Below, piece after piece: positions 1 through 7,202 of a stretch of DNA of 7,202 bases. The notes below the pieces were generated by a model. It saw only the letters and a program-made list of their open reading frames with translations, made no database searches and was not told where the DNA came from. The DNA lies in NCBI GenBank assembly GCA_003577005.1, contig QEUW01000376.1, positions 1 to 7,202 on the forward strand. The letters run 5' to 3'. Position 1 is the stretch's first letter. Each line of letters starts with the position of its first letter. Origin of the DNA: Chloroflexota bacterium (lineage in GTDB: Bacteria; Chloroflexota; Anaerolineae; Caldilineales; Caldilineaceae). The position numbers were made by a program, and so were the translations under genes.

Positions 1-402
1 TAACATCTGGTCGGTGGTGGCAGCCAGCAACGTCATATCCGCCTGTTTGAGTTGATGGCGTGTCACCAGACCCAGCAATGATGAACGGCGCAAGAGAACC
101 GTGTCGCCATAGAGAATCAGCAGCGGCCCCTCATAGCCGGCCAACGCCCGCTCCGCCTGCAAGACTGCGTGTCCGGTGCCACGGCGTTCGCCCTGCACCA
201 CGTAGCGATAGCGGTCGCCAAAATGGGCAGCGACCGCGCTGTTGGCCTGCTCTATAACCACGAGCAGATGGTCGGGCGCAACCAGCGTCGTTGCCCGCTC
301 GACCACATAATCGATCAGCGCCCGGTCGCCCAGCGGTTGCAACAACCAGGCCGGGTCATCCGGATGATGGGGCGAACCCGCCGCAAGGATCAACGCTTTC
401 AT
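1..402 (-). CDS. GlmU-like sugar nucleotidyltransferase, N-terminal part (cut by window edge)
   Basis: The first 134 codons of a gene running off the left edge; the ATG is at 402-400. The start MKALILAAG is the first strand and loop of the nucleotidyltransferase (GT-A-like Rossmann) fold. Around residues 70-80, QGERRGTGHAV matches the GlmU-type uracil-recognition segment (Q70 and GTGHA), and LYGD at 97-100 supplies the metal-binding Asp (D100). Known members join a sugar 1-phosphate, or a similar phosphate, to an NTP and release pyrophosphate. The oddity is at residues 10-21. The usual GxGTRM...PK signature is replaced by SPHHPDDPAWLL, so the expected Arg and Lys appear as His and Trp in my alignment. 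The enzyme may be divergent or its catalysis altered. The ATG lies 4 nt after the stop of the upstream kinase gene, suggesting translational coupling; no strong Shine-Dalgarno is visible. An attached acyltransferase domain cannot be excluded because the C-terminus is missing. Confidence 0.85.
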   Translation of the reverse strand, partial: MKALILAAGSPHHPDDPAWLLQPLGDRALIDYVVERATTLVAPDHLLVVIEQANSAVAAHFGDRYRYVVQGERRGTGHAVLQAERALAGYEGPLLILYGDTVLLRRSSLLGLVTRHQLKQADMTLLAATTDQML

Positions 403-405
403 GGT

Positions 406-426
406 TCTACGCTCTACGCTCTACGT
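406..426. repeat. Heptamer tandem array at the kinase/nucleotidyltransferase junction
   Basis: Three head-to-tail 7-bp units on the plus strand: TCTACGC (406-412), TCTACGC (413-419) and TCTACGT (420-426). The array spans the last codons and the stop codon (407-409) of the kinase gene and ends 4 nt before the ATG of the nucleotidyltransferase gene. Read on the coding strand the unit is GCGTAGA, which supplies the TAG stop. Confidence 0.85.
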
Positions 427-1330
427 TCTTAAGCCAGGTTTCTAACGCATCTACTGCACAGTTGTGCATGAATCGCTCCAGGTGGCGGGTCCCGTAGCTC
501 GCAAAGTCAAAGTCGAGTGCGGAAATACGGGTCTGCACCATCCCCCAGATCCCCTCGCGGGCATCAGAGACGATCTTCATCAGCTTCAGGCGTGCCCATG
601 CCGGTTCGACGACCTCGCCAAAATAAGCGGTGAGCAGCGCCTCGTCTTCGCCGTCGGTGAACTCGTTGTTGACGGCCAGGTTGCCCAGGTCAAAAAAGGG
701 ATCGCCCCAGCCTGCATATTCCCAGTCTACCAGTTGGAGGCGACCCTCTGGCTCTTCCAATAGATTGGCTGGGAGCAGGTCGTTGTGACAGGCAGCCAAC
801 GGTGGTGGGTTGCGCTGTAGCGCGCTTTCGATCCGGTCCATCTGCGCCGCAACAGTCCCAATCCAATCCGGCAACGGCGCCTCATGAGCATGGCAGAAGG
901 CAAGCCCTTGCTCAAAGATGCGAAAGACATCAAAGCGGCCGGCAAAATGGGGCAGGGCGTGATAACGGCGCATCAGGTTCATCACCTGTTCCAGCCGGGG
1001 TGAGGAGCGTACGTGAGCAGCCTCCAGGGTGCGACCTTCCACAAAGCGGGTGATCAGCACCTCCTGGCCTGCGGGCAAGTCGTCAAAGAAAGCAACAAAT
1101 TCGGGTGCGATACCAATGGCGGCTGCCGCCTGGCTGCACTCCTGTTCGGCCTGGCGGTCGATGCCGTGGATCGCCACACCTTGCGCACAAATACGAACGA
1201 CAAAAGCTTCGTCATCTACCTGAACTCTGTAATTTTTGTTCGTAATGCCACCGGTCATCGGCGACACAGCGACAGGTTTATCTGCCCAGGCAGGGAGTCG
1301 CTGTTGTAGTTCGTCAATCAGTGCATCCAT
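407..1330 (-). CDS. Choline kinase / aminoglycoside phosphotransferase-fold small-molecule kinase
   Basis: A 307-aa protein of the ChoK/LicA/APH kinase fold, of normal length for the family. GGITNKNYRV at residues 27-36 is the nucleotide-binding loop typical of choline kinase/LicA members, followed by FVVRI at 43-47. The Brenner motif HNDLLPANLL (182-191) carries catalytic D184 and N189. VDWEYAGWGDPFFDLGNL (201-218) carries the metal-binding D202. Known relatives phosphorylate a hydroxyl on choline, ethanolamine, a sugar or an aminoglycoside in the cytoplasm; the substrate here is unknown. I chose the ATG at 1330. The frame stays open much further upstream, but that extension overlaps the preceding isomerase gene in another frame and shows no family similarity. 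An AAGAGG lies only 1 nt before the ATG, too close for a good ribosome site. GAG motifs in the upstream heptamers sit at a better distance. The last residues (about 303-307) are encoded by the heptamer array. Confidence 0.88.
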   Translation of the reverse strand: MDALIDELQQRLPAWADKPVAVSPMTGGITNKNYRVQVDDEAFVVRICAQGVAIHGIDRQAEQECSQAAAAIGIAPEFVAFFDDLPAGQEVLITRFVEGRTLEAAHVRSSPRLEQVMNLMRRYHALPHFAGRFDVFRIFEQGLAFCHAHEAPLPDWIGTVAAQMDRIESALQRNPPPLAACHNDLLPANLLEEPEGRLQLVDWEYAGWGDPFFDLGNLAVNNEFTDGEDEALLTAYFGEVVEPAWARLKLMKIVSDAREGIWGMVQTRISALDFDFASYGTRHLERFMHNCAVDALETWLKNVERRA

Positions 1331-1336
1331 GCCTCT

Positions 1337-1357
1337 TGATCTCTGGTCTCTAGTCTC
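1337..1357. repeat. Heptamer tandem array between isomerase and kinase genes
   Basis: Three degenerate 7-bp units on the plus strand: TGATCTC (1337-1343), TGGTCTC (1344-1350) and TAGTCTC (1351-1357). On the coding strand they read GAGACTA, GAGACCA and GAGATCA. They fill most of the 28-nt gap, starting just after the isomerase stop codon (1359-1361) and ending 7 nt before the kinase ATG. The GAGA cores may stand in for a Shine-Dalgarno sequence; that is inference. Confidence 0.75.
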
Positions 1358-1358
1358 A

Positions 1359-2216
1359 TCAGCCCCCAACCGCCTGTTGCCACGCCTCTTGCAACATCGC
1401 CACACTCTTGGGCATGGCTGTCTCGGCGGCCTCGGCGCCCTCCATCTCGATGGAGACGTAGCCGCTGAAACCGGCGTCGAGGAGCGTGCGGAAGATGCGA
1501 GCGTAGTCCAGGTCGAGCGAATACCAGGTGCCGCCGCCAAAATAGGTCTTGGCGTGAGCAAGCCGGACGTGCGGTGCAATACGCTGCATGGCGGCGTACA
1601 TGTCGGGCTCAAAGAGAAAATTGCCCATGTCCAGGATCGCCTTGAGCCAGGGCGAGTTGACCGTCTCAATGATGGTGGCCATATCCTCGGCAAAGGTAGT
1701 GAGCCCCCAGTGGTTCTCCAGCAGCAGCATGACACCGTGCCGTTCGGCGTGGGGCAGACAGGCGTTGATGGCGTCGATACACCAGCGGAAGCCATCGTCT
1801 TTGGTGTAGCCGGCCCACGGTTCGACCCAACCTTTGGCCTTGATCAGATCATCGAAGCTCCCCCCTTTGCGCCACCCGCCCGAATTGATGCGGATCGAGC
1901 CGATGCCCATGTTGTTCGCCAGCTCGATGCAGCGGACCGTATGGTCGATATGTTGCTGGCGCTCCTCAGCGTTCTCCCAGACAAAATCCTGGTGGATGCT
2001 GAGGTTATAAAGGTTCAGCCCCAGGCGAAAGGCGTGGCGTTTGAGCCCTTGCAGATAGCTGTTCTCTTCGCTCGCCAGTTGGCGGTGTAGGACCTCTACC
2101 CCGTGCAGGCCGAGCTTGTGCGCTTCATCGAGCACGGTTTCGATAGCCGTCACTTCCGGCGTGAAGTGCCAGTAGGAGTAGGTGGAAGTTCCAAGGCGGA
2201 GGGTAGGTGAGTGCAT
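1359..2216 (-). CDS. Sugar phosphate isomerase/epimerase, xylose-isomerase-like TIM barrel
   Basis: A 285-aa protein of the xylose isomerase-like/AP endonuclease family 2 TIM-barrel superfamily, at normal full length. The metal-binding pattern is complete: E167 in LLLENHWG, D196 in ILDMGNF, H221 in LAHAKTYF and E257 in SIEMEG, each at the end of a predicted barrel strand. E41 (GVEVLH) and H75 (LSIHQDF) fit the usual early active-site positions. Relatives isomerise or epimerise ketoses, cyclitols (IolE, IolI) or keto-sugars with a divalent metal in the cytoplasm. The neighbouring Gfo/Idh/MocA dehydrogenases fit a pathway in which an oxidised sugar or cyclitol is then rearranged, or in which a keto-glycoside is cleaved by elimination. 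The substrate is not determinable. The ATG is preceded by AAAGGA about 10 nt upstream, which overlaps the stop of the dehydrogenase gene 14 nt away, so coupling is likely. Confidence 0.88.
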   Translation of the reverse strand: MHSPTLRLGTSTYSYWHFTPEVTAIETVLDEAHKLGLHGVEVLHRQLASEENSYLQGLKRHAFRLGLNLYNLSIHQDFVWENAEERQQHIDHTVRCIELANNMGIGSIRINSGGWRKGGSFDDLIKAKGWVEPWAGYTKDDGFRWCIDAINACLPHAERHGVMLLLENHWGLTTFAEDMATIIETVNSPWLKAILDMGNFLFEPDMYAAMQRIAPHVRLAHAKTYFGGGTWYSLDLDYARIFRTLLDAGFSGYVSIEMEGAEAAETAMPKSVAMLQEAWQQAVGG

Positions 2217-2225
2217 GGGATGTCA

Positions 2226-2233
2226 ATCCTTTA
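2226..2233 (-). promoter_or_regulatory. Shine-Dalgarno for the isomerase gene, overlapping the upstream stop
   Basis: On the coding strand TAAAGGAT holds both the TAA stop of the upstream dehydrogenase (2233-2231) and an AAAGGA ribosome site. The site lies about 10 nt before the ATG at 2216-2214. The overlap suggests that ribosomes finishing the dehydrogenase reload on the isomerase. Confidence 0.6.
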
Positions 2234-3247
2234 TGATCGAGAATCGCTAGAACGTACGGCAACCGGCTCGCCTGCCTCCGCCGAGCGGTAGGCAGCCAGC
2301 GTCACTTCCAGCGCCCGTAGCCCATCCTCGCCGGTGATCGAAGGGGAACGGCCACGCTGGATCATCGAGACAAAGTCATCGATCAGCCCCTGATTCATAT
2401 CGCTGCCCCAGGGGTGCCAGTATGTTTTGCCATGCTTTTCCGAGCTGATTGCCAAATGCTGGCGAAAGGTGTCCACATAGAGCACACCGTTTTCACCCGT
2501 CACTTCGATCTTGACATCTCCCCAGGTGGGGTAGCTTGACGGACGCGACCAACTGGTATCAAGTGTCCCGTAGACCCCATTTGCCAGGGTAAAGGAGAGC
2601 AGGCCGACATCATCGATCCCCAGACCAGGGTGGAGCACGCTGTCGCCGATTTCGGCATAGACTTCGGTCACTTCGGTCTGCCAGAACCAGCGCAATAGGT
2701 CGATTACGTGGACCGTGTGGTCCATGACAGCGCCGCCGCCGGCAAGCTGCCGGTCGATAAACCAGCGTCCTGGCGTCCCGCCGTGGTTGGTGGTCTGCAC
2801 GGCGTAGACAGCGCCAAGGAGACCTTCATCCAGCTTGGTCTTCAGCCATTGGATGGGCGGCGCAAAGCGCACGGGGAAGGCGATCTGTAGCCGGGCGCCG
2901 GTGCGGGCGCAGGTATCGATCATGGCCTGGGCGTCCGCAACGGTGGTGGCAATGGGTTTCTCACAGAGGATCGCCCCGACCCGGCCCGTGGCCTGTTCTA
3001 CCATTGGGCGGTGTTTGGCATTTTCGGCGCAGACGACCACACCGTCGAGTTGCTGATCGAGCAATTCATCGGCAGATGCAAAGAACTCAATTTTATGACC
3101 GTCTGCCGCTTGCCGGCCACGGTCCAGGTCGTCATCATAGAGGCCGACCACCGTCACATCACGGCGGTTGCGGAGACAGGCCAGATAGCTATGCACATGG
3201 CCGTGAGCGGCGCTCAAAATCCCAATTCGGGTGAGGTTGGCTGTCAA
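2231..3247 (-). CDS. Gfo/Idh/MocA family oxidoreductase (third of three), TTG start
   Basis: A 338-aa NAD(P)-dependent dehydrogenase of the Gfo/Idh/MocA family. The N-terminal Rossmann domain occupies roughly residues 6-125, with the signature C95-E96-K97-P98 holding the catalytic Lys. The C-terminal alpha/beta domain has GGGAVMDHTVHVID at about 170-183, which gives the usual Asp (D176) and catalytic His (H180). Relatives oxidise or reduce hydroxyl groups of sugars, sugar acids and inositols. The nucleotide-binding loop is unusual: after strand 1 it reads RIGILSAAHGHVH (7-19) and not GxGxxG. The start is a TTG (3247-3245) with GGAG 9 nt upstream, and I see no ATG or GTG that would preserve the first strand. 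The protein differs clearly from the two upstream paralogs, so this is not a recent tandem duplicate. Substrate and cofactor preference are unknown. Confidence 0.88.
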   Translation of the reverse strand: MTANLTRIGILSAAHGHVHSYLACLRNRRDVTVVGLYDDDLDRGRQAADGHKIEFFASADELLDQQLDGVVVCAENAKHRPMVEQATGRVGAILCEKPIATTVADAQAMIDTCARTGARLQIAFPVRFAPPIQWLKTKLDEGLLGAVYAVQTTNHGGTPGRWFIDRQLAGGGAVMDHTVHVIDLLRWFWQTEVTEVYAEIGDSVLHPGLGIDDVGLLSFTLANGVYGTLDTSWSRPSSYPTWGDVKIEVTGENGVLYVDTFRQHLAISSEKHGKTYWHPWGSDMNQGLIDDFVSMIQRGRSPSITGEDGLRALEVTLAAYRSAEAGEPVAVRSSDSRS

Positions 3248-3256
3248 CGTCTCTAG

Positions 3257-3260
3257 CTCC
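3257..3260 (-). promoter_or_regulatory. Shine-Dalgarno supporting a TTG start
   Basis: GGAG on the coding strand lies 9 nt before the TTG at 3247-3245. It decides the start of this dehydrogenase, which has no suitable ATG near its N-terminal beta strand. Confidence 0.55.
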
Positions 3261-3271
3261 TGATTTGCGGT

Positions 3272-3292
3272 TGATGAGTGATGAGTGATGAG
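3272..3292. repeat. Heptamer array, left arm of the 108-nt spacer
   Basis: Three exact copies of TGATGAG (3272-3278, 3279-3285, 3286-3292), followed by a degenerate TAAACAG. This is the left member of an inverted pair; the right member is at 3334-3361. Confidence 0.9.
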
Positions 3293-3362
3293 TAAACAGG
3301 AATGGTGTTAGTCTTTTCCCCTCCCTGTCGCCATTCACTTATCACTTCTCACTCATCACTCA
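3275..3362. other. Long imperfect inverted repeat (hairpin) built from heptamers
   Basis: The 14 nt TGAGTGATGAGTGA at 3275-3288 is exactly complementary to 3349-3362. Further in, GAATGG (3300-3305) pairs with CCATTC (3331-3336). Between them the pairing is broken, leaving a central loop of about 25 nt (3306-3330) with a pyrimidine-rich plus strand. The outer arm reaches the TGA stop of the upstream dehydrogenase gene (3356-3358). There is no U-tract after the stem in the direction of transcription, so a classical intrinsic terminator is unlikely. mRNA processing, stabilisation or attenuation are possible roles (inference). Confidence 0.7.
3334..3361. repeat. Heptamer array, right arm of the 108-nt spacer
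   Basis: Four degenerate units on the plus strand: TTCACTT, ATCACTT, CTCACTC and ATCACTC. On the coding strand they read as AGTGA-type heptamers and include the TGA stop codon of the upstream gene. They are the reverse complement family of the TGATGAG units at 3272-3292. Confidence 0.8.
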
Positions 3363-4354
3363 CCTTTCGTAAAATTTGCGATCTCCACCGGCTTGCCCGT
3401 GCGCATGGATTCGTTGGCGGCCAGCGCCACCTTGACCGCCATCAGCGCATCGTGCGGCGTGACGAGGAAGGGTGCGCCGCTTTCCAGACAATCCAGAAAA
3501 TGGGCCAACTCGGCAAAATAGGGGTTGTCGTTGGGCGCCAGCGGCGTGTGCTCGCTATAGACATTGCCATCCTGCGTCTCATTCGCCATGATCTGGGTGA
3601 TGGGGCCATTGTCATTCGAGTCCCACTCGATGACGCCGCCGTCACCGCAGATCTCAAGCCGGGTGCGCCAGTGACCCGGCGGGCCGGCCCAACCAGCCTC
3701 GATATGGCCGACGCCGCCGTTGGCAAAGCGCAGCGTGATCAGGGCATGGTCGCGCTCGGTAGGGCGAAAGGTCAGCCCGCGGGCAAAGACTCGTTCGACC
3801 TCACCCATGCACCAGCGGTGAAAGTCGATGTCGTGGATGCCCACGTCGAGGATCACGCCGCCGCTCAGGTTGAAATCGGCAAAGAAAGGGCGCCCACGCG
3901 GGAAGGCCCCGGCGCGGATGGTGCGGATCACGCCGGGCTTGCCGATTGCGCCGCTGTCGATGGCCGCTTTGGCCTGAGCAAACTGGGCAAAGAAACGCAC
4001 CACATGCGCCACAAAGAGGGGAACACCGGCCTGCCCCACCGCCTCGACCATTTCGTAGCAGTCGGCCAGATGGCGGGCCAGGGGTTTTTCGCAGACCATG
4101 GGCTTTCCGGCGCGGGCGACGGCGAGCACATGCTCCTTGTGCGCCACCGACGGCGAACAAATATCGACGATGTCTACCCTGTCCAAAAGCTGGTGCAGAT
4201 CAGTGAACGCCTGCCCGCCGTACTGCTGGCTAAAGCGCTGCGCCGCCTCGGGCACAGCATCATAATAACCAACGACCTCAACGGGCAGTTGCTGCCAACT
4301 CGCTACGTGAACCCGGGCAATATTGCCTGCCCCAATGATTCCGATTCTTTTCAT
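3356..4354 (-). CDS. Gfo/Idh/MocA family oxidoreductase (second of three)
   Basis: A 332-aa NAD(P)-dependent dehydrogenase and the most canonical of the three paralogs. MKRIGIIGAGNIARVH gives the first Rossmann strand with a GxGxxA loop at residues 8-13. VCEKPLA has E89-K90-P91 with the catalytic Lys. ILDVGIHDIDFHRW (168-181) has D170 and the catalytic H174. Length is normal for the family. Relatives include inositol 2-dehydrogenase, glucose-fructose oxidoreductase, 1,5-anhydrofructose reductase and glycoside 3-dehydrogenases; the exact substrate cannot be assigned. The ATG (4354-4352) lies 4 nt after the stop of the upstream paralog, with no strong ribosome site, so translation is probably coupled. 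The stop codon falls in a heptamer repeat array. A long open frame on the opposite strand (3302-4381) is a codon-bias shadow of this gene. Confidence 0.92.
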   Translation of the reverse strand: MKRIGIIGAGNIARVHVASWQQLPVEVVGYYDAVPEAAQRFSQQYGGQAFTDLHQLLDRVDIVDICSPSVAHKEHVLAVARAGKPMVCEKPLARHLADCYEMVEAVGQAGVPLFVAHVVRFFAQFAQAKAAIDSGAIGKPGVIRTIRAGAFPRGRPFFADFNLSGGVILDVGIHDIDFHRWCMGEVERVFARGLTFRPTERDHALITLRFANGGVGHIEAGWAGPPGHWRTRLEICGDGGVIEWDSNDNGPITQIMANETQDGNVYSEHTPLAPNDNPYFAELAHFLDCLESGAPFLVTPHDALMAVKVALAANESMRTGKPVEIANFTKGE

Positions 4355-4358
4355 TCTG

Positions 4359-5606
4359 TTAGATGCTGTAGTACTGGTTGATTTCCCGCTGATAGTAATC
4401 GACCTGTCCGTTCAATACCTCGTCGATGGAAACGGCGCGCCCCAGGTGTGAGGATTCGATCATGGCGTAGGCCGCGGCGAGGTCGCAGAGCCCGCATTCG
4501 CCGTCGGTCTCGGGCTGGCCGCCTCGCTCGATGGCTTGCAACCAGTCATATTGTTGAATCGTGTAGGGGTCGCGGAAGCCGATTGGGTAAAAGAGCTCCC
4601 GGGTCGTGCCATCGGCCTGCTCATCGAAGAGCGCAGTCGTCGTCGTGCGCGTGCCGTCGTCGAGGATCACATTGCTGCCTTTGATACAACCCTTGGAGCC
4701 AAAAAAGGCCGGCGTCCCAGGGATCTCGATCGCCTCACCGTGGGCGCCCCACGACCAGAGCAACTGGCCGATGGCGCCGTTGCGAAAGTTGATCGTGGCA
4801 AAGTAGGTGTCATCCACATTGCACTCGGTGCGGTTGGCAATGGCGCCGTCGGGTGTGCGCGTATAGCGCACCGGTTCAAAGGTGCGCACCGAGGCGTGAA
4901 CCGACTCGATGTCGCCACCGACATAGCGGATCCAGTGCATCGCGTGGACGCCAATATCGATCGCGCCCCCACCGCCGCCGGCCAATTTGTGATGGCGCCA
5001 CGGTGTCTCTGCCACGATCTTGTCCGGCGACCAGAAACCGCCGATACTGCCCATGAGCGCCATCTGCAGCTCGCCAATGATCCGCTGCTTGACGACCCAA
5101 TGGGCGGCGCGCACGCTCTCAACCTGGCGCACGTTCTCGAAGAGACCGAGCGTCAATCCGCCCGCTTTGGCTGCATCTACCAGCATCCGGCCCGCCTTGA
5201 CGGTGATGGTCAGCGGCTTTTGCACCAGCAGATGTTTCCCCCGTTCCAGCGCATAGAGGCCCACCTGATGATGCATCAAGAGCGAGGTAAAATCATTGAC
5301 CGCGTCGACCTGGCCGGAATCGATCAGCTCGCGATAGTCGGTGAAGATGGCTACTTCAGTCTCCGGCTGAAAGTCGCTCAGATAGGTATGGGGCGCAGCG
5401 AGCGGATCACCCGTTTCCGGGGCCAGCACCGGCGGGCGGGGCGGTGGCCCTTCACCCCGCTTGCGAAACATGAGCGCATCGTTGGGGTTGCGGGCGCAGA
5501 GCGCCGTGATGCGAAAATTGTCAAAGCCAGCCTCGCGCAACTCGCGATAAGCCTGCAGATGGGCATTCAATATCCGCCCACAACCGACAATACCAATACG
5601 GATCAT
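4359..5606 (-). CDS. Gfo/Idh/MocA family oxidoreductase (first of three), extended form with QKP
   Basis: A 415-aa member of the Gfo/Idh/MocA family, longer than the typical 330-390 aa. IRIGIVGCGRILNAH (2-16) is the Rossmann dinucleotide loop. An extra proline-rich stretch at about 45-85 (GEGPPPRPPVLAPETGD and beyond) lies between the second strand and the next part of the Rossmann domain. The catalytic-Lys motif reads V128-Q129-K130-P131, with Gln in place of the usual Glu. LAGGGGGAIDIGVHAMHW (208-225) supplies D217 and catalytic H221. The fold and likely sugar or cyclitol dehydrogenase chemistry are well supported, but the substrate is unknown. An excellent AAGGAGA ribosome site sits 4 nt before the ATG, so this gene is probably the first of the metabolic group after proS. 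It overlaps nothing, and its stop is 4 nt from the next paralog. Confidence 0.9.
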   Translation of the reverse strand: MIRIGIVGCGRILNAHLQAYRELREAGFDNFRITALCARNPNDALMFRKRGEGPPPRPPVLAPETGDPLAAPHTYLSDFQPETEVAIFTDYRELIDSGQVDAVNDFTSLLMHHQVGLYALERGKHLLVQKPLTITVKAGRMLVDAAKAGGLTLGLFENVRQVESVRAAHWVVKQRIIGELQMALMGSIGGFWSPDKIVAETPWRHHKLAGGGGGAIDIGVHAMHWIRYVGGDIESVHASVRTFEPVRYTRTPDGAIANRTECNVDDTYFATINFRNGAIGQLLWSWGAHGEAIEIPGTPAFFGSKGCIKGSNVILDDGTRTTTTALFDEQADGTTRELFYPIGFRDPYTIQQYDWLQAIERGGQPETDGECGLCDLAAAYAMIESSHLGRAVSIDEVLNGQVDYYQREINQYYSI

Positions 5607-5610
5607 GGGT

Positions 5611-5617
5611 TCTCCTT
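5611..5617 (-). promoter_or_regulatory. Strong Shine-Dalgarno for the first dehydrogenase gene
   Basis: AAGGAGA on the coding strand, 4 nt before the ATG at 5606-5604. It is the best ribosome site in the window. Confidence 0.8.
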
Positions 5618-5620
5618 CAA

Positions 5621-5647
5621 TGGACGGTAGACGGTGGACGATGGCGC
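5621..5647. repeat. Heptamer array, left arm of the proS/dehydrogenase spacer
   Basis: Units TGGACGG (5621-5627), TAGACGG (5628-5634) and TGGACGA (5635-5641), then a decaying TGGCGC. It pairs in inverted orientation with the array at 5684-5707. Confidence 0.85.
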
Positions 5648-5707
5648 TACTCCTAGTATGCCTGGCCTACTGCGTGAGGAGGGCAATCGCCCATCGTCTA
5701 TCGTCTA
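5628..5707. other. Long hairpin beginning at the proS stop codon
   Basis: The arms 5628-5646 and 5688-5707 are complementary over 17 of 19 pairs, with one bulged base. The 41-nt loop has its own nested pairing, CTCCT (5650-5654) with AGGAG (5677-5681) and AGTA (5655-5658) with TACT (5668-5671). On the transcribed strand the outer stem opens with the TAG stop of proS. There is no U-tract, so it is not a standard intrinsic terminator. It may separate proS expression from the downstream genes or protect the proS 3' end (inference). Confidence 0.75.
5684..5707. repeat. Heptamer array, right arm at the proS stop
   Basis: Units CAATCGC (5684-5690), CCATCGT (5691-5697) and CTATCGT (5698-5704), then CTA. 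On the coding strand they read TAG followed by ACGATAG, ACGATGG and GCGATTG, so the proS stop codon is in phase with the repeat. Confidence 0.85.
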
Positions 5708-7147
5708 ATATGACCTGCCAAAAATGGCGATTTGTGTTGCCTGCTTGCCCGTGTAAAAGCAGACACCGCTGCCGCCGGGCGGGTCGAGCGGGATGCAGCG
5801 GAGCGTCGCTCGGGTCTCTTCCTGGATGCGCTTTTCGTCAGCGCTGCTGCCGGCCCACCAGACCCGTGCGAATCCTTTGTTCACCGCCTCTTTGAACTCC
5901 TCATAATTCGCCGGTTCAAGCGTGTTTTCATCACGGAATTGGCTCGCTCTATTCAGCAGCGCAGTATGAATCTGGCGCAGCAGATCAGGCGCCACGGCCG
6001 CCAGTTGGTCGCGGGCGATGGATTGCTTCCCCTCTCGTCCGCGCTGGTCGCGGCGAGCCAGAACCAGCGCCTTGTTTTGTACATCGCGCGGGCCGATCTC
6101 GATACGCATGGGGACGCCCTTGAGCTCCCAGTCGTTGAATTTGAAACCGGGCGATAGCTGCTCGCGGCGGTCGATCTTGCTGCGTATCCCCAGGTCGCCC
6201 AACTCCTGGTGGACGCTTTCGGCGGCGGCCAGCACTGTGCTCTTTTCGCTGTCGCTCTTGTAGATCGGCACGATGGCACACTGGATAGGCGCCAGCCGCG
6301 GCGGCATGATGAGCCCTGCATTGTCCCCGTGCGTCATGATAATGGCGCCGATAAAGCGCGTACTCAATCCCCAGGAAGTAGTCCAGCAAAACTGCCAGTC
6401 GTTGTTGGTATCCTGATATTTGATGTCAAAGGCCTTGGCAAAATTTTGCCCCATAAAGTGCGATGTGCCTGACTGAAGCGACCGTCCATCGCCCATCATC
6501 GCTTCGATGGTGAGCGTCATTTCGGCCCCGGCAAAACGCTCGTTCTCCGACTTTTCGCCTCGAATCACCGGGATTGCCGCATCGTTGATGGCGAAGTCGG
6601 CATAGACATCCAACATCTGGCGTGTTTCGGCGATGGCTTCTTCGGCGGTGGCATGGGCCGTGTGCCCCTCCTGCCAGTAGAATTCGAGGGTGCGCAGAAA
6701 GAGCTTGGTGCGCATCTCCCAGCGCACGACGCTGTTCCACAGGTTGAGCAGAATGGGGAGGTCGCGGTAACTCTGTACCCACTTGGCATAGGTGTGGCCG
6801 ATGATCGTCTCGGACGTGGGGCGTACGGCCAGGGGTTCGGCCAACTCCTCACCGCCGCCGTGGGTGACGACAGCCAGTTCGGGCGCAAACCCCTCCACAT
6901 GTTTGGCCTCCTTCGCCATAAAGCTGAGGGGAATAAACATGGGGAAGGCGGCATTTTCATGGCCGGTGGCCTTGAAGCGCCGGTCCAGCGCCTGTTGGAT
7001 GTTCTCCCAGAGCGCCCAACCATAGGGGCGGACGATCATGGTGCCGCGCACCGGGCCATAGTCGGCCAGTTCGGCTTTGAGCACCAGTGAGTTATACCAC
7101 TCGTTAAAATCTTCTTCTTTTGAAACTAGAAAATCGCTCGATGACAT
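5705..7147 (-). CDS. proS: Prolyl-tRNA synthetase, archaeal/eukaryote-type
   Basis: A 480-aa class II aminoacyl-tRNA synthetase that charges tRNA-Pro with proline using ATP in the cytoplasm. Its length and lack of the bacterial INS editing insert mark the archaeal/eukaryote-type form found in several bacterial phyla. Motif 1 lies near residues 35-56 (RGTMIVRPYGWALWENI). The proline-binding TxE loop is RPTSE (109-113). Motif 2 runs from VVRWEMR (141-147) to WQEGHTAH (158-165). GTSHFMGQNFAKAF (227-240) and motif 3 around GLSTRFIGAIIMTHGDNAG (260-278) complete the catalytic core. The anticodon-binding domain follows from about 288 to 395. The C-terminal domain (about 405-480) ends in the hallmark Tyr, but only two cysteines (C451, C463) remain where zinc-binding members have four. 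The ATG at 7147 is the first possible start, because an in-frame stop lies about 20 nt upstream. Confidence 0.97.
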   Translation of the reverse strand: MSSSDFLVSKEEDFNEWYNSLVLKAELADYGPVRGTMIVRPYGWALWENIQQALDRRFKATGHENAAFPMFIPLSFMAKEAKHVEGFAPELAVVTHGGGEELAEPLAVRPTSETIIGHTYAKWVQSYRDLPILLNLWNSVVRWEMRTKLFLRTLEFYWQEGHTAHATAEEAIAETRQMLDVYADFAINDAAIPVIRGEKSENERFAGAEMTLTIEAMMGDGRSLQSGTSHFMGQNFAKAFDIKYQDTNNDWQFCWTTSWGLSTRFIGAIIMTHGDNAGLIMPPRLAPIQCAIVPIYKSDSEKSTVLAAAESVHQELGDLGIRSKIDRREQLSPGFKFNDWELKGVPMRIEIGPRDVQNKALVLARRDQRGREGKQSIARDQLAAVAPDLLRQIHTALLNRASQFRDENTLEPANYEEFKEAVNKGFARVWWAGSSADEKRIQEETRATLRCIPLDPPGGSGVCFYTGKQATQIAIFGRSY

Positions 7148-7160
7148 TTTGGGTTTGGAT

Positions 7161-7167
7161 CTCCTTT
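7161..7167 (-). promoter_or_regulatory. Shine-Dalgarno for proS with long spacing
   Basis: AAAGGAG on the coding strand, with 13 nt between it and the ATG at 7147-7145, longer than the usual 5-9. An in-frame TAA just upstream rules out an earlier start. Confidence 0.6.
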
Positions 7168-7168
7168 A

Positions 7169-7202
7169 GCGTGGCACGTGATACGTAATACGTGATGCGT
7201 AA
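7169..7202. repeat. Heptamer array upstream of proS (cut by window edge)
   Basis: Units on the plus strand are GCGTGGC (7169-7175), ACGTGAT (7176-7182), ACGTAAT (7183-7189), ACGTGAT (7190-7196) and a partial GCGTAA at the edge. The core CGT is constant. The array may be one arm of an inverted pair or follow the stop of the next gene upstream. No promoter could be identified in the visible 55 nt. Confidence 0.8.

Follow-up and report, generated by a model that had tools for sequence, protein, structure and literature searches.

Our analysis of a 7,202-nt stretch of DNA from a Chloroflexota bacterium of the family Caldilineaceae (contig QEUW01000376.1, positions 1 to 7,202; the whole stretch is called the window here) suggests that the tandem arrays of 7-bp units at its gene junctions are heptamer simple-sequence repeats of a known class, which have grown by slippage, often form hairpins between the end of one gene and the ribosome-binding site of the next, and are sometimes retained. 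We hold this reading to be probable, though by no means strongly so. Two pairs of arrays in the window (3272-3293 with 3335-3362, and 5623-5644 with 5686-5707) form inverted repeats with a hairpin fold, and arrays in related genomes show a strong though patchy excess of period 7, inverted pairing, a fixed order of the two arms and proximity to stop codons.

Arrays and hairpins in the window

Six lag-7 segments were found in the window at a score of at least 9, against a mean of 0.06 and a maximum of 1 in 200 simulations under a first-order Markov null; at the other lags there were no segments at 5, 6 and 8 and two at 9. The period-7 sites listed in the initial annotation were all recovered in this way except the one at 1337-1357, the weakest of the window, which fell just under the threshold. 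The arrays, including those flanking the proline--tRNA ligase (ProRS) gene, are given below, with Tandem Repeats Finder abbreviated as TRF.

406-429, minus strand: single heptamer array of TCTACGC (gene strand GCGTAGA); lag-7 segment, TRF score 41
1337-1357, minus strand: weak array of TGATCTC, TGGTCTC and TAGTCTC (gene strand GAGAYYA); readable by eye, below score 9
3272-3293, minus strand: 3′ arm of hairpin 1, plus-strand unit TGATGAG in three perfect copies; lag-7 segment, folding
3335-3362, minus strand: 5′ arm of hairpin 1, imperfect gene-strand units TGAGTGA, TGAGTGA, GAAGTGA and TAAGTGA; holds stop codon 3356-3358
5623-5644, minus strand: 3′ arm of hairpin 2, plus-strand units GACGGTA, GACGGTG and GACGATG; lag-7 segment, folding, each unit matched in relative G001
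5686-5707, minus strand: 5′ arm of hairpin 2, gene-strand units GACGATA, GACGATG and GGCGATT; holds the ProRS stop codon 5705-5707
7170-7202 (scored segment 7176-7200), minus strand: imperfect array upstream of ProRS, plus-strand units CGTGGCA, CGTGATA, CGTAATA and CGTGATG; clipped by the window end

Both hairpins have loops of 41 nt. The folding z-scores are -6.85 on the gene strand and -6.73 on the opposite strand for hairpin 1, and -4.23 and -6.22, respectively, for hairpin 2. Arrays contain three stop codons (407-409, 3356-3358 and 5705-5707), and a fourth, that of the iso gene at 1359-1361, lies 1 base from the weak array, which makes 4 of the 4 visible upstream stops in the window. Neither the inverted pairing nor the stop codons inside arrays had been remarked on in the initial annotation.

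The window consists of seven minus-strand genes, identified by profile and family searches:

1-402, minus strand: nucleotidyltransferase, clipped by the window start (family search)
407-1330, minus strand: kin, choline kinase/APH-fold kinase (open frame end and family search; the family was assigned on the slightly short version 412-1330)
1359-2216, minus strand: iso, xylose-isomerase-like TIM barrel protein (family search)
2231-3247, minus strand: oxA, Gfo/Idh/MocA oxidoreductase, TTG start as listed (family search)
3356-4354, minus strand: oxB, Gfo/Idh/MocA oxidoreductase (family search)
4359-5606, minus strand: oxC, Gfo/Idh/MocA oxidoreductase (family search)
5705-7147, minus strand: ProRS gene (TIGR00408, over the cut-off)

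Within the window the heptamer does vary from junction to junction with 3-4 copies, as had been described. The accompanying claim of an array at every non-coupled junction needs qualification: arrays occur at 5 of 7 junctions, the seventh being cut off where the window stops. The array at 406-429, however, sits in the coding end of the kinase gene, where it encodes the last six residues (NVERRA) plus the stop codon, and the spacer there (403-406) is just 4 nt, equal in length to the array-free spacer 4355-4358. The kinase array also indicates that arrays can run into the coding end of a gene. A plasmid search with a repeat query gave no match, which says little since low-complexity sequence is filtered.

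Period, pairing and position in relatives

The top ProRS match among the best 80 loci was a Caldilineaceae metagenome-assembled genome with 85% identity (L001, genome G001); other genomes are numbered likewise. A scan of 520 kb from relatives, in 40 stretches and at threshold 12, found 21 arrays at lag 7, and 1, 2, 1 and 4 at lags 5, 6, 8 and 9. Sampling of 420 kb each gave 81 lag-7 arrays in G036, against 0, 6, 25 and 4 at these lags, and 18 in G033, against 0, 0, 0 and 1; TRF concurs, with 82 period-7 and 24 period-8 arrays in G036 and 25 and 0 in G033. At threshold 11, lag 7 accounted for 69 arrays in G036 outside called genes, against 23 for lag 8, 1 for lag 6 and none for lags 5 and 9, and a further 24 lag-7 arrays lay inside called genes. 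Loci L001-L113 at threshold 13 gave 12 arrays at lag 7 and 0, 2, 4 and 3 at lags 5, 6, 8 and 9, a count that takes one G001 junction twice (L001 and L081). The enrichment of lag 7 over lags 5, 6, 8 and 9 that the initial annotation had proposed as a check thus holds in several relatives, but it is weak in G015 (7 period-7, 5 period-8 and 9 period-9 arrays by TRF) and not clear at threshold 11 among the loci from the first search, where 32 loci with Chloroflexota-like titles gave 5 arrays at lag 7 and 3, 2 and 6 at lags 6, 8 and 9, and 47 others gave 6 at lag 7 and 6, 3 and 6 at the same lags. Arrays in the relatives have between 2 and 16 copies, most often 4.

Contrary to the strict period first described, 7 is not the only unit length, since G036 (L186, L214-L233) carries 24 period-8 arrays. 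Some of these also occur as inverted pairs, whose polarity is mixed (4 to 2 of 6 pairs within 150 bp). Heptamer arrays were also seen in loci titled Acidobacteria (L045), Candidatus Aquidulcis (L054) and Terriglobia (L060), and a locus titled Bacteroidetes (L003), whose ProRS is 71% identical to that of the window, has a paired GATTCTC/GAGAATC heptamer hairpin at 10494-10560.

Pairing of the arrays is not confined to the window. Among 45 array pairs no more than 200 bp apart, 21 were inverted copies at a similarity of at least 0.7 and 4 were direct copies; for unlinked control pairs the values were 354 and 343 of 4000. In G036 adjacent arrays are unusually alike, with a median rank of 10.5 among 100 others where chance would give about 50. 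Under looser limits 32 inverted pairs were collected; 29 of them begin with the G-richer arm, none ends with it, and the remaining 3 have skew of the same sign in both arms. The polarity was the same for pairs with G3/C3 runs (13 to 0) and without them (16 to 0), and quadruplex potential is therefore unnecessary for it. At the loci of G001 that carry the unit GACGRTR, both orientations were present in 9 of the 15 read (14 hand-picked from the match listing plus L237), and the forward arm came first in all 9.

The arrays are also placed unevenly with respect to genes. In four relatives, with periods 7 and 8 combined and genes taken from our own simple gene caller, 48 of 87 array clusters lay within 15 nt of a gene on its stop-codon side, where uniform placement predicts 30, and 9 of 91 lay within 15 nt on the start-codon side, where 17.6 are expected. 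Arrays occupy 61 of the 215 G036 spacers of at least 30 nt, comprising 45 of 155 co-directional, 7 of 26 convergent and 9 of 34 divergent gaps, or 0.94, 0.83 and 0.60 arrays per kb, respectively. The cleanest layout was found in G001:C200, where a stop codon is followed by a hairpin with about four units per arm, a ribosome-binding site and a start codon.

In principle, hairpins in such positions could be dedicated RNA signals at gene ends, acting in termination, 3′-end protection or intercistronic processing, with the period of 7 a by-product of their construction. The proximity to stop codons, the stable folds and the order of elements in G001:C200 are all consistent with this explanation. 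However, neither window hairpin is followed by a T run on the gene strand, which led us to reject intrinsic terminators as their identity, the window has no Rfam family at the gathering threshold, which disposes of a known RNA family, the convergent gaps of G036 show no excess, and many arrays are single arms. A terminator scan found no site at the window arrays, and this result is uninformative for 41-nt loops because the scan accepts only loops of 3-8. Taken with the points on both sides, we think it unlikely that the hairpins are such signals.

Vocabulary, inheritance and origin of the arrays

The separate heptamer for each locus that the initial annotation proposed is not supported by the related genomes. 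The proportion of within-genome array pairs sharing at least 6 of 7 bases was 33% in G033 (23 arrays), 12% in G036 (93), 27% in G015 (6) and 62% in G001 (7), and the baseline with shuffled units was 2-4%, an excess of 4.5 to 17 times. Three copies of GACGRTR had 319 overlapping matches in G001, 6 in G015, 5 in G036 and none in G012, G033 and G026, with a backward control that gave 0 in every genome except G036 (79), and at least 28 separate loci on 26 contigs of G001 could be distinguished by eye among the matches listed. Three copies of TGATGAG matched 7 times in G001, 5 times in G012 and nowhere in G015, G036, G033 and G026. In 3 of 10 comparisons between genome sets, heptamers were shared clearly more often than shuffled units, which makes the vocabularies largely genome-specific. 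Genomes reuse their own vocabulary, and the impression that every junction differs in its heptamer is in part a consequence of the small window.

Vocabularies common to a genome, and above all one heptamer at so many G001 loci, would be expected of dispersed mobile elements of the repetitive extragenic palindromic (REP) or miniature inverted-repeat transposable element (MITE) type, in which a transposase-like enzyme copies an inverted heptamer pair between loci. The flanks of 14 G001 loci gave three short matches of 21-25 nt that could be read in the same way, one of which (L281 and L286) resembles an outer stem. However, no match was found among the 21 loops that measure 15 nt or more, which led us to reject a dispersed element with common loops, and the 15 matches among 103 masked array regions of G036 mostly overlapped neighbours, the rest being a period-8 repeat, an internal inverted repeat and two short matches. 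The lengths of the arms also vary widely and are very unequal at some G001 loci, for example 1 and 8 units, or 7 and 1. We regard copying by such elements as the most improbable of the explanations considered. The match between L281 and L286 covers 25 nt at 88% in opposite orientation, and some arrays may accordingly lie within a larger palindrome.

The history of individual junctions could be followed in a few cases. The one long junction that is directly orthologous between the window and G001, that of ProRS and oxC, carries repeats in both, as the initial annotation would predict. Both genomes have hairpins of one heptamer there, with one arm in identical unit order (GACGGTR, GACGGTG, GACGATG), and GACGGT units are rare elsewhere (3 among the 101 units that were counted at 18 further loci of G001); the comparison covers this junction, whose arms were compared as both are arrays. 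Third codon positions of the flanking genes are 58% (ProRS) and 57% (oxC) identical between the two genomes. The oxB-oxA hairpin is present in the window only, with short spacers at that junction in G001, G012 and G015, which are distant relatives. At the oxA-iso junction, the window has 14 nt without an array, no array was seen in G012, and a two-unit GTGGTGC hairpin was seen by eye in G015. The same junction of G001 (L246, G001:C286, about 3200-3280) shows, by eye, a palindrome GGTGACAGTCACTTT..AAAGTGACTGTCACC beside two GAGACTR units, which we take to resemble REP-type elements. Two further observations made by eye concern G012 (L247, G012:C508): a long inverted repeat upstream of oxC (about 7670-7960) that is AT-rich and in part spaced by 7 bases, and about 1 kb between oxC and oxB (about 5460-6440) where the window has 4 nt, which may encode an Rpn-type nuclease.

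A simple scheme would account for much of this. The starting point would be a short heptamer, or a small pair of inverted heptamers, which replication slippage extends through period-7 duplication; because damage to coding sequences and ribosome-binding sites is selected against, most of the growth would be restricted to the surroundings of the stop codon and the sequence after it; copying onto adjacent units would homogenise each arm; and arrays that form hairpins would sometimes be retained for long, probably because between cistrons a hairpin does no harm or is of use. Adjacent units are more alike than distant ones, as predicted by local duplication (mismatch of 0.187 between neighbours and 0.303 five units apart, in 144 arrays). 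Variable positions within units were not clustered (mean z 0.08, 108 arrays), and a contiguous conserved core was rejected on this basis. The scheme leaves aside the dominance of one heptamer at many loci of a genome.

Several observations weigh against this scheme. Random local slippage should produce unrelated heptamers at each locus, yet vocabularies are common within genomes far over chance. The unit-level conservation at ProRS-oxC speaks against fast slippage at that one junction. Lag 14 is also high (48 segments in G036 and 30 in G033), and in G033 it outnumbers lag 7 (18). When neighbours of any similarity are taken, the polarity is less clean, with 28 G-first, 1 G-last and 11 same-sign pairs within 150 bp and 30, 3 and 12 within 400 bp. 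A function at 3′ ends is weakened by the lack of a T run after both window hairpins and by the divergent gaps of G036, which are as array-rich per gap as the convergent ones, and the position counts depend on the simple gene caller mentioned above.

Some of the same evidence would suit a purely mutational origin, in which arrays grow by slippage, hairpins form by template switching at stalled forks, there is no function and position reflects tolerance only. The per-gap rates are alike in all junction classes of G036, the loops do not match, period 8 occurs too, and the spread is patchy, with at least one array in 9 of 47 sampled genomes (threshold 11; many sampled for few kb). It is harder to reconcile with the unit-by-unit conservation at ProRS-oxC despite 58% third-position identity, and the strict polarity of the inverted pairs is no obvious outcome of drift. 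We consider this alternative doubtful, though it deserves to be taken seriously, and continue to favour slippage with occasional retention of gene-end hairpins.

A more far-reaching proposal, which we rate as improbable, is that some cellular process writes or copies heptamers where genes end, drawing on a vocabulary specific to the genome and keeping a fixed polarity in which the G-richer arm comes first, quadruplex formation not being the reason for the format. If so, the hairpin format would be shared, while each genome would have a heptamer dialect of its own. Independently of this proposal, many of the units that show the pairing, the polarity and the position at stop codons in Chloroflexota lack G-runs, and the format thus probably has a cause other than quadruplexes. 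Array-rich genomes such as G036 offer the opportunity to test why seven is a preferred unit length in bacteria.

Comparison with known heptamer repeats

Heptanucleotide repeats of heterocystous cyanobacteria are known as short tandemly repeated repetitive sequences (STRR). The initial annotation had set them apart as one sequence shared across many loci, a description that we reject after scanning 350 kb of plasmid A of Trichormus, which has 15 arrays there with many heptamers and two neighbouring inverted pairs; three heptamers are likewise cited for Calothrix in PMC4692102. The STRR resemble the window in their period of 7 and in the use of several heptamers, and differ in that one of the two Trichormus pairs has the opposite skew. 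A vocabulary common to Trichormus and Chloroflexota was rejected, the matches being only slightly over those of shuffled units (exact, 0.13 against 0.045, p 0.1; 6 of 7 bases, 0.80 against 0.65, p 0.21).

Nor is it the case, as was first thought, that no comparable system has been described: both an excess of heptamers and convergent pairs of inverted repeats close to stop codons have been published (PMC4692102, PMC4679880 and PMC6749651). Mrazek et al. (2007), as cited in the available portions of PMC4679880 and PMC4692102, reported an excess of heptanucleotides in long simple sequence repeats of bacteria and proposed slippage across a 7-nt contact of the polymerase; those portions say nothing about pairing, polarity or a position at stop codons. 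Chloroflexus aurantiacus has 22 heptamer-derived (GATAGRA)n satellites, which are heptamer arrays in Chloroflexota like ours but consist of a single heptamer, and the accessible part of that report does not mention hairpin pairing (PMC6749651). For intergenic heptamer tandem repeats in Chloroflexi this was the only report that a search of open-licence papers found, with no closer case by title, an absence that proves little. The TAACTGA repeats of marine Beggiatoaceae, which also occur in cyanobacteria, are intergenic with 2-6 copies; they differ, according to the excerpted text of PMC4679880, in having one heptamer, direct repeats with one indirect, and a position mostly just upstream of start codons.

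The closest resemblance is to the heptamer repeats GGGAATC and GGGGA(C/T)T of Xanthomonas and Nostoc, for which convergent pairs and stop-codon proximity have been described, with few pairs in Nostoc (PMC4692102, in its accessible sections, to which the following comparisons also refer). The Chloroflexota arrays are likewise tandem 7-bp units mainly outside genes, with the G-richer arm of inverted pairs first (29 of 32, none reversed) and with stop codons close by (48 of 87 clusters in the relatives and 4 of 4 window stops). Unlike those repeats, no window array has the unit GGGNATC or GGGGA(C/T)T, and our arrays comprise many heptamers, most of them without G-runs; G036 does hold 17 GGGGATT and 3 GGGGACT arrays among many other units. 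The Xanthomonas and Nostoc repeats are scarce between divergent genes; in G036 divergent gaps are similar to the others per gap and lower per kb. That study centres on G-rich units with quadruplex potential, and the Chloroflexota case extends beyond it, in that a polarity which holds without G-runs and genome-specific dialects are not covered by the published accounts in the parts available. The arrays of the window and its relatives are a real, diversified variant of this known class of heptamer repeats, closest to the convergent repeats of Xanthomonas.

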